From Solirubrobacteraceae bacterium (GTDB lineage Bacteria; Actinomycetota; Thermoleophilia; Solirubrobacterales; Solirubrobacteraceae), in NCBI GenBank assembly GCA_017882455.1, contig JADGPL010000003.1, positions 62,001 to 126,000 of the forward strand: DNA of 64,000 nucleotides, read 5' to 3'. Within the stretch, counting starts at the first letter, position 1, and the number at the start of each line of letters is the position of its first letter. Positions 52,051 to 54,478 of this stretch are shown piece after piece. Under the pieces are notes generated by a model. That model did not search any database. It was not told where the DNA came from and saw nothing but the letters and a program-made list of their open reading frames with translations. The position numbers and the translations under genes are program-made.

Positions 52051-53208
52051 ATGGACTTCGACCTCTCCCGCGAGCACGAGCTGATCCGGCGCACCGTCAG
52101 GGAATTCGCCGAGGGCGAGGTGGCTCCCGTGGCCGAGGAGCTCGACCGCACCAAGTCCTTCCCCTATGAGATCGTCGAGAAGCTGGGGAAGCTCAACCTG
52201 ATGGGGATCCCCTTCCCCGAGGAGTACGGCGGGGGCGGGGGCGACACGCTCGCATACGCGCTGGCGGTCGAGGAGCTCACGCGCGTGGACTCCTCGGTGG
52301 CGATCACGCTGTGCGCCCACACCTCCCTGGGGACCCAGCCGCTCTACCTCTTCGGCAGCGAGGAGCAGAAGCGCGAGTGGATGCCGCGGCTGTGCTCGGG
52401 CGAGCGGCTCGGGGCCTTCGGGCTGACCGAGCCGGAGGCCGGCTCGGATGCGGGCAACACCCGCACCAGGGCGCGCCTGGAGGACGGCGAGTGGGTGATC
52501 GACGGCACCAAGCAGTTCATCACCAACGCCGGCACCGACATCTCGGGGCTGGTGTGCATCACGGCGGTCACGGGCGGGGAGGCAGCCGATCCCGCCCAGC
52601 CCAAGGAGATCTCGAACATCATCGTCCCCAACGGCACCCCCGGCTACGAGCAGGGCGAGCCGTACCGCAAGATGGGCTGGAACGCCTCGGACACGCGACC
52701 GCTGAGCTTCAGTGACTGCCGTGTGCCCGAGGAGAACCTGCTCGGCCCCCGGGGCGCCGGCTTCAAGCAGTTCCTGCACATCCTCGACATCGGGCGCATC
52801 GGTGTGGCGGCGATGGGCGTGGGGCTGGCCCAGGGCGCGCTCGACGAGGCGCTGAAGTACGCCAAGGAGCGCCGTGCCTTCGGCAAGCCGATCTCGAAGT
52901 TCCAGGCGATCCAGGGCAAGCTCGCCGACATGTCAACCGAGATCGCCGCCGCGCGCCTGCTGGTCTACAAGGCCGCCCGCGAGAAGGACGCGGGGCGCAA
53001 CTTCACCCTGACGGCGGCCCAGGCCAAGCTCAAGACGGGTCGGCTGGCGGTGCGCTGCGCCGAGGAGGCCGTGCAGATACACGGCGGCTACGGCTTCATC
53101 GAGGAGTACCCCGTGTGCCGCTTCTACCGCGACGCCAAGATCCTCACGATCGGCGAGGGCACCGACGAGGTGCAGCAGATGGTGATCGCCCGCGCGCTGG
53201 GCGCGTGA
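52051..53208 (+). CDS. Acyl-CoA dehydrogenase
   Basis: This 385-residue FAD enzyme introduces the alpha-beta double bond in acyl-CoAs. It contains LGAFGLTEPEAGSDAGNTRT (substrate/FAD contact) and KQFITNAGTDISGLVCITAV. The C-terminal signature is QIHGGYGFIEEYPVCRFYRD, and the catalytic glutamate is expected in GEGTDEVQQMVIARAL, i.e. the short/branched-chain type. Electrons would pass to EtfAB and ETF-QO encoded nearby. It is divergent from the esterase, with 45 bases between starts. Confidence 0.95.
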   Translation: MDFDLSREHELIRRTVREFAEGEVAPVAEELDRTKSFPYEIVEKLGKLNLMGIPFPEEYGGGGGDTLAYALAVEELTRVDSSVAITLCAHTSLGTQPLYLFGSEEQKREWMPRLCSGERLGAFGLTEPEAGSDAGNTRTRARLEDGEWVIDGTKQFITNAGTDISGLVCITAVTGGEAADPAQPKEISNIIVPNGTPGYEQGEPYRKMGWNASDTRPLSFSDCRVPEENLLGPRGAGFKQFLHILDIGRIGVAAMGVGLAQGALDEALKYAKERRAFGKPISKFQAIQGKLADMSTEIAAARLLVYKAAREKDAGRNFTLTAAQAKLKTGRLAVRCAEEAVQIHGGYGFIEEYPVCRFYRDAKILTIGEGTDEVQQMVIARALGA

Positions 53209-53240: not shown

Positions 53241-53274
53241 TACGCACACTTGCGTTACGTGGCTTTGCGTATGG
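53241..53274. repeat. Left flanking repeat of the AAA ATPase gene
   Basis: The segment contains TACGCA, TGCGTTACGT and TTGCGTA in register with the right repeat at 54442-54475; 26 of 33 aligned positions agree without gaps (acgca-xxxx-TGCGTTACG). It ends 19 bases before the TAGAAT -10 box, so it covers the -35 region. Confidence 0.7.
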
Positions 53275-53293
53275 ATTTCAATGCATGGCAGCG

Positions 53294-53299
53294 TAGAAT
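53294..53299 (+). promoter_or_regulatory. -10 box of the AAA ATPase gene
   Basis: TAGAAT is followed by six bases (AAAGGG) and then the ATG at 53306. Transcription would begin at or next to the ATG, giving a leaderless mRNA. Confidence 0.6.
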
Positions 53300-53305
53300 A
53301 AAGGG

Positions 53306-54451
53306 ATGGCCCCAGAGACGCACACCAATCCCTTCCGGTATGGAGCGCTGGCCCTCGACGACGCCTTCACGGACCGCGAAGGCGAGGTCGTCGAACTGAC
53401 CGACGACGCGCTCAACGGCCAGGACGTCGTCCTGTTCGCTCCGCGGCGCTTCGGCAAGTCCTCGCTGATGTGGAGGGTCTCCCAGGATCTCATCGCGCGG
53501 CGGGCACTCGTGGCCCACGTCAACCTCATGACCACCCCCACCGTCACCAGGCTCGCGGAGAAGCTCGCCCGGACCGTCTATGACGACATCGCCTCGCCGC
53601 TGTTCCGCGCCAAGGAGCGGCTGAGCATCTTCCAGGGACTGCGTGTGCGCCCGCTCGTCACCGTCAACCCCGACGACGGCTCGCTGAGCTTCAGCTTCGA
53701 CGCCGCCCCTCGACCGGAGGACATCGGAGCAACATTGGAGCGGCTGTTGGAGCTTCCCGGACAGCTGGCGGGGGAACGCAAGCGCCCGGTGGTCCTGATC
53801 CTCGACGAGTTTCAGGAGGTGGTGGAGATCGATGCGGGCCTGCCCCGCCTGATGCGCTCGGTCTTCCAGGAGCAGCCCGAGGTGGCCCATATGTATCTGG
53901 GCAGCAAGCGCCACATGATGCAACGCATCTTCAACGACGAGAACGAGCCGTTCTGGCGCAGCGCCAAGCAGGTCGAGCTGGGCGTGATCGGCGAGGAGCC
54001 CTTCGGCCACTACATCGAGCAGCAGTTCGCTCGCACGAGCAGGGGGATCGAGGAAACGGCCGTCGAGGCGATCCTGGCGGTCACCGGGGGACACCCATAC
54101 GCGACCCAGGAGCTCTGCTACTTCCTATGGCAGGACACGCCGGCTGGGAGCATCGCGAACGTCGAGGGAGTGTCGGATGCGCTGGCGGGGGTGCTCAACT
54201 CCGAGCACGCGCACTTCAGCCTCGTTTGGGAGGGCGCCTCGGCTCACCAGCGCGTGCTGCTCAGGGCGCTGGCCGAAGAGCCCGGGCATCCACTGGCAGC
54301 GGACTACCGCCGCCGCCACGGCCTGCCGGCGGCATCCAGCACGCAACGGGCACTCCAGGCTCTGGAGCGGGCCGAAGTCGTTGGTCGGAACGCCGGGCGA
54401 GCCTGGATCACGGAGCCGTTCCTCGCGCAGTGGCTGCTCGATAACGCATAG
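53306..54451 (+). CDS. STAND/archaeal-type AAA ATPase
   Basis: This 381-residue P-loop ATPase belongs to the archaeal ATPase (PF01637-like) group. Walker A is FAPRRFGKSSL (Gly50-Lys51-Ser52), Walker B is VVLILDEFQEV (Asp167-Glu168), and MYLGSKRHMMQRIF is the sensor-like segment. GGHPYATQELCYFLW is the typical C-terminal sensor motif. A winged-helix-like domain follows at about 310-380. Function is unknown; relatives occur in mobile and defence contexts. Related palindromic repeats lie at both ends of the gene, and the right one overlaps the stop codon. Confidence 0.85.
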   Translation: MAPETHTNPFRYGALALDDAFTDREGEVVELTDDALNGQDVVLFAPRRFGKSSLMWRVSQDLIARRALVAHVNLMTTPTVTRLAEKLARTVYDDIASPLFRAKERLSIFQGLRVRPLVTVNPDDGSLSFSFDAAPRPEDIGATLERLLELPGQLAGERKRPVVLILDEFQEVVEIDAGLPRLMRSVFQEQPEVAHMYLGSKRHMMQRIFNDENEPFWRSAKQVELGVIGEEPFGHYIEQQFARTSRGIEETAVEAILAVTGGHPYATQELCYFLWQDTPAGSIANVEGVSDALAGVLNSEHAHFSLVWEGASAHQRVLLRALAEEPGHPLAADYRRRHGLPAASSTQRALQALERAEVVGRNAGRAWITEPFLAQWLLDNA

Positions 54452-54478
54452 TTGCGTTACGCAGCTATGCGTAACGCA
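54442..54478. repeat. Right flanking repeat of the AAA ATPase gene
   Basis: TGCGTTACGCA (54453-54463) and TGCGTAACGCA (54468-54478) form an 11-bp perfect inverted repeat with a GCTA spacer. TAACGCA precedes it and overlaps the last codon. It is a better-formed version of the left repeat, in the same orientation. As RNA it could also act as a strong 3' hairpin. Confidence 0.8.

Follow-up and report, generated by a model that had tools for sequence, protein, structure and literature searches.

A single ATPase gene that stands between housekeeping genes, with related repeats on either side, raises the question of what these repeats are for: do they delimit a small mobile unit that carries the gene, or do they serve as the operator and the 3' control element of a gene that regulates itself, its winged helix binding them? 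Both possibilities had been put forward in a sequence-only reading of the window, by which we mean the whole stretch of 64,000 nucleotides of the Solirubrobacteraceae bacterium contig analysed here (genome G000), and we followed them through the locus itself, related genomes and the wider family of the protein.

The ATPase gene and its two flanking arrays

The gene is an intact open reading frame, present as a single copy in its 3.3-Mb genome, and it lies between an acyl-CoA dehydrogenase (ACAD) gene that ends at 53208 and a convergent F420-type nitroreductase gene (PF04075, TIGR00026) (Table 1). A TAGAAT at 53294-53299 is followed after 6 nt by the ATG at 53306, which suggests a likely leaderless transcript. 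Because a consensus scan reported no sigma-70 promoter at this start, the -10 box is given as putative, and how the left array lies with respect to the true promoter is uncertain. No RNA family matched the region, the protein had no match in PHROGs and none to a known anti-phage defence family in PADLOC (best E 0.065), and viral contigs contained no relative of it.

Table 1 Features of the ATPase locus, in window coordinates
Feature	Position	Strand	Basis
Left (promoter) array, ACGCA-CACT-TGCGT-T-ACGTG-GCTT-TGCGT	53242..53270	+	score 18/20
TAGAAT, probable -10 box	53294..53299	+	read from the sequence, putative
AAA+/STAND-like ATPase with C-terminal winged helix, 381 aa	53306..54451	+	weak PF13191/PF01637 matches; AF2; 2qen/2fna fold
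Winged-helix domain, residues 313-368	54242..54409	+	secondary structure of the model
Recognition helix, residues 343-355; R348 likely specificity residue	54332..54370	+	column rank of residue 348
Right (3') array, ACGCA-TAGT-TGCGT-T-ACGCA-GCTA-TGCGT, overlaps the stop codon	54444..54472	+	score 20/20

The left and right stretches agree at 26 of 34 positions at an offset of 1202, as the sequence-only reading had placed them, and the perfect 11-4-11 inverted repeat that it saw in the right one is indeed present (TGCGTTACGCA-GCTA-TGCGTAACGCA, 54453-54478). Its term "palindromic repeats" needs refinement, since the repeats are real but each is better described as an array of half-sites than as one palindrome. 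Both follow the layout R5-N4-F5-N1-R5-N4-F5 (F being TGCGT and R its reverse complement) with a period of 15 bp; their cores are identical at 25 of 30 positions (53242-53271 vs. 54444-54473), and the final palindrome of the right array extends to 54478. Taken alone, the 26-base match is unremarkable and not strong evidence, because elsewhere in this GC-rich window the best 33-mer pairs of 1.7-kb pieces reach 24-27 (Markov shuffles, maximum 24). The repeats stand above chance owing to their array geometry, their rarity in the genome, their conservation in a second genome and the recurrence of that geometry at relatives' promoters. Among coding control stretches of 160 bp, about 1.7% score at least 18 for this geometry and 0.3% at least 19. 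Pattern searches of the whole 3.3-Mb genome found exact TGCGTTACGNNGCTNTGCGTA only at the two arrays, TGCGTNACGCA only in the right one and the full palindrome nowhere else, and a single unit recurs at two sites, both within open reading frames and at the control frequency.

Apart from the window's own, just one genome, G023, was found to have the ATPase gene beside the same ACAD gene, and it has both arrays, i.e., no homologue at this locus was encountered without flanking repeats. Between the two genomes, half-sites are retained and spacers are not: 16 of 20 half-site positions vs. 1 of 9 spacer positions are the same in the left array, 19 of 20 vs. 1 of 9 in the right array (p = 1.8e-5), and 35 of 40 vs. 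2 of 18 when both are pooled (p = 3e-8). Judged by this substitution pattern, both arrays, the right one included, have been kept under selection as half-sites of fixed spacing.

Arrays and residue 348 among relatives

Relatives were drawn from 201 genomes of the neighbourhood and GTDB contigs, plus further stretches, which together gave 74 distinct homologues within the order. A motif-blind comparison of upstream with downstream flanks found a match only for the window gene and that of G023, and a geometry-aware scan was needed to detect the arrays of other relatives; repeated palindromes are visible in the 130-140 bp before the gene in most of the 74. In the near subfamily (n = 21, including the window's gene), the mean self-match at a lag of 15 was 15.3 of 24 vs. 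10.3 (z 12.5), and in a remoter subfamily (n = 51) the self-match at a lag of 23 was 14.2 vs. 10.4 (z 14.4), while none of 300 shuffles rose above 11.9 at any lag. When half-site geometries were scanned, N1/N4 came out for the near genes and layouts of 23 bp for the remoter ones. These promoter arrays overlie the -10 in the relatives, and their half-site letters vary by gene (TGCGT, GGTAT, CGTAT, AACAT, GGCAC and others), differing even among paralogues of one genome, e.g., five in G028.

Right arrays are patchier, being present in about 6-7 of 22 near relatives and absent in about two thirds. Matched right arrays at most about 30 bp from the stop codon are seen in the window, in G023 (L114), in L036, L128 and L211, and weakly in L121 and L125; L118, L124 and L126 have two arrays upstream and no right array, and others have one longer array. 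Ranking each gene's own motif against those of other genes in the downstream DNA did not discriminate, many motifs being alike.

The letters of the half-site covary with one position of the predicted recognition helix. When all varying protein columns of the near group were compared with each half-site base, residue 348 ranked first for both base 1 and base 2 (z 4.7 among 251 columns and z 4.5 among 262), in a test that is not fully independent as the sequences share history. All 9 genes with Arg348 have a pyrimidine at base 1, as against 0 of 8 with other residues (p = 4e-5), and Lys348 is paired with G at base 1 in 4 of 5 (p = 0.01). Neighbouring branches switch accordingly, i.e., L118 (Lys/G) vs. 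L124 and L126 (Arg/C), L041 (Lys/G) vs. L116 (Arg/T) and L039 (Lys/G) vs. L040 (Ala/A). Two genes outside the scan obey the same rule (L211, Arg with C/T; L217, Val with A), and the exceptions are L122 (Lys with A, its array at background) and L127 (Thr with G). Among the near genes, Mantel distance tests reached no significance; the remote group gave modest partial Mantel values (r 0.14-0.19, p 0.014-0.028) and no recognition-helix signal in the column association.

By eye, homologues in other classes also have upstream arrays (L164 and L165, the latter with a period of 15). The first of these, from another class of the phylum, is preceded by three near-perfect 22-bp units (TGTGCTTTCAAAAGCAC+N5) and offers a clean case for biochemistry. 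A further ATPase group of the xxFSPSFGNRP type (L179, L180 and L182) has upstream direct repeats of GGAAAAAAGGAAA.

A predicted self-binding ATPase

Residues G50-K51 and D167-E168 of the Walker A and B motifs are invariant in 72 sequences, and the AF2 model of the window ATPase (pLDDT 92, pTM 0.88) has an AAA+ core followed by a C-terminal winged helix. As its PF01637 score of 27.3 bits is below the cut-off of 33.2 (the PF13191 match likewise falls below its cut-off), the protein was placed by structure and profile instead, and on the predicted model we call it "SSO1545-like" and not a "PF01637 member". The closest structures are 2qen (PABY2304, Z 25.1) and 2fna (SSO1545, Z 24.5), over 330 residues. 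These two share the full-length fold at 17% identity and are also the best full-length PDB profile matches, but they are archaeal and the window ATPase is bacterial, and the comparison made here is with their structures only. Archaeal Orc2 (Z 19.1), NLR proteins (18.3) and TnsC (16.4) follow, and Orc1/Cdc6 in complex with origin DNA scores Z 16.6-17.3. We know of no cognate DNA sites for SSO1545 or PABY2304.

Based on the arrays of the relatives, their gene-specific letters, the conservation of half-sites and the covariation with residue 348, each computed directly, we consider it most likely that the gene encodes an autoregulated ATPase with gene-specific operator arrays, one that probably represses itself. 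This agrees with the operator and 3' element, and with the winged-helix site, that had been predicted from the sequence. In such a scheme, the C-terminal winged helix would bind its own half-site TGCGT within ACGCA-N4-TGCGT units every 15 bp, in a promoter array that sits at the -35 edge here and over the -10 in relatives. An ATP-dependent oligomer would probably form along the array, and binding there would most likely repress the gene's own leaderless transcript until a presumed signal releases it. The array at the stop codon may be an auxiliary operator, acting, e.g., through DNA looping or by stopping transcription that reads through from one side or the other. Repression alone does not cover the role of the right array, and many relatives do without one; an auxiliary operator would suit this patchy occurrence better than an obligatory transposon end. 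A broader proposal, which we regard as unlikely, is that these ATPases form a large class of self-recognising single-gene units, whose fast-changing DNA specificity would be set largely by one recognition-helix residue and whose paired arrays would, beyond repression, mark array-gene-array as a unit, e.g., as a relic initiator with iterons or a mover assisted by host enzymes.

Repeated sites at a gene's own promoter that are bound by the gene product are familiar from the iteron and tandem-operator autoregulators of plasmids (Rep, ParA), but these belong to an unrelated protein family and are plasmid-borne, whereas the window ATPase is encoded by a solitary chromosomal gene. Orc1/Cdc6 initiators combine an AAA+ core, a winged helix and DNA sites as the window ATPase does (Z 16.6-19.1), yet the fold match is weaker than that to SSO1545, the sites of the window gene lie at promoters, and the likeness is of fold only. 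IniR, a mycobacterial STAND ATPase regulator, has an AAA+ domain that its authors liken to SSO1545, and it multimerises and binds DNA as a transcription regulator, as is predicted for the window ATPase (PMC5760070). Unlike the latter, IniR combines, in 818 aa, a MalT-like sensor domain with an SdiA-like DNA-binding domain, its target is another operon, iniBAC, which it activates, and the parts of that paper drawn on here describe no self-matched arrays (PMC5760070).

Limited searches of the open-licence literature found no published description of such arrays for PF01637, DUF234 or SSO1545, and no paper giving a function to SSO1545-type ATPases, which are spread over bacteria and archaea. With a DNA site for each gene, a spacing of 15 or 23 bp for each subfamily and a candidate residue for specificity, a first biochemical test becomes simple, and a widespread ATPase family gains a role that can be tested, that of a DNA-binding protein regulating itself. 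If each gene has its own site, cross-talk is avoided, and this would account for the presence of several such genes side by side in a single genome.

Turnover of the gene and competing readings

Comparison of the interval between ACAD and nitroreductase in sister genomes, which had been suggested as a check on mobility, showed empty sites: seven genus mates have gaps of -1 to 76 bp without the gene (G004, G007, G008, G010, G011, G015 and G022), and three more have a rearranged gene order and no ATPase gene. In the rpoB tree, the gene-less G018 and G022 are closer to G000 than is the gene-bearing G023, and the shared site in G000 and G023 is as compatible with an ancient gene that was later lost in places, or with allelic transfer, as with insertion. 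Judging from these genomes, the ATPase gene is dispensable and turns over. Since the 22 near relatives are spread over about 17 unrelated neighbourhoods, it has, by the evidence of gene order, also changed places over time.

Whether it did so as a small mobile unit that carries only the ATPase, with the two arrays as self-recognised ends, is another matter. DNA homology between the window and G023 stops at 54478, exactly at the right array, and together with the empty gaps, the scattered neighbourhoods and the matched right arrays that recur in a few relatives this boundary speaks for such a unit. We nonetheless find it quite improbable, as about two thirds of the near relatives lack a right array, some having two upstream instead, the motifs differ from gene to gene, the unit occurs once in its own genome, and no target-site duplication is visible at the locus, where intergenic DNA is too diverged between species to show one clearly. 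The structural likeness to TnsC also points toward mobility, but it is unspecific given that ORC and NLR proteins share this fold, and the unit is a single open reading frame with AAA+ and wHTH parts only, i.e., it includes no nuclease or recombinase, and a domain for cutting strands is not part of an AAA+ ATPase.

The gap between ACAD and nitroreductase seems to be a small insertion hotspot. In G023, the DNA past the right array holds a probable toxin-antitoxin pair, a toxin with a RES domain (PF08808, RES E 3.5e-9) and an Xre/MbcA/ParS-like partner, at the position of the window's nitroreductase and directly after the ATPase. In G018, ACAD and nitroreductase are separated by 228 bp (L045/L113) that hold a repeated element and no ATPase gene. 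This repeat is ~105 bp long and ends in terminal inverted repeats of 16 bp (GCGATAGCCATCGTAT/ATACCATCGCTATCGC); it has ten related places in G018 (copies L198-L205), its core motif is absent from the window's genome, and it looks like a MITE or a modular intergenic repeat family. A remote-group ATPase (L085, G006:C281) lies beside DNA homologous to the window at about 56.9-57.4 kb, with the nitroreductase ~5 kb off on the same contig, so the window neighbourhood may have received such ATPase genes more than once.

As binding of the ATPase to the arrays is a prediction, a different, trans-acting regulator might occupy them instead. This is very improbable, because letters that vary among the paralogues of one genome mean that no single other factor explains the arrays, and because the best protein predictor of the letters is the recognition helix of the ATPase itself.

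Iteron layouts consist of iterated sites beside the gene, and the arrays recall them; with archaeal Orc2 as the best structural match after the two SSO1545-type structures, and Orc1/Cdc6 on origin DNA not far behind, the protein might be an ORC/Cdc6-like initiator and the arrays the iterons of a relic or cryptic replicon. We hold this to be extremely unlikely in view of the chromosomal position between housekeeping genes, the lack of an adjoining partner replication gene, the few and remote plasmid relatives with none in viral contigs, and a fold that NLR and TnsC proteins have in common. Scarcely any more credible is a right repeat that serves chiefly as an RNA hairpin (a terminator or 3' stabiliser between convergent genes) with an incidental likeness to the left one, for although the perfect inverted repeat at the stop codon folds well in the window (-23.7 kcal/mol, z -3.6), it has no terminator-like T tract and the hairpin is lost in G023 and L036 (z 0.39 and 0.33) while the half-sites of G023 are kept, which makes the DNA sites, and not the hairpin, the thing conserved.

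Two remote ATPase relatives elsewhere in the window's own genome (L191 and L192) are likewise preceded, immediately ahead of their starts, by DNA that is palindromic and repeated, and a fragment of 43 residues with 60% identity to the C terminus of the window protein (G138:C9:46952-47080) is apparently a gene remnant.
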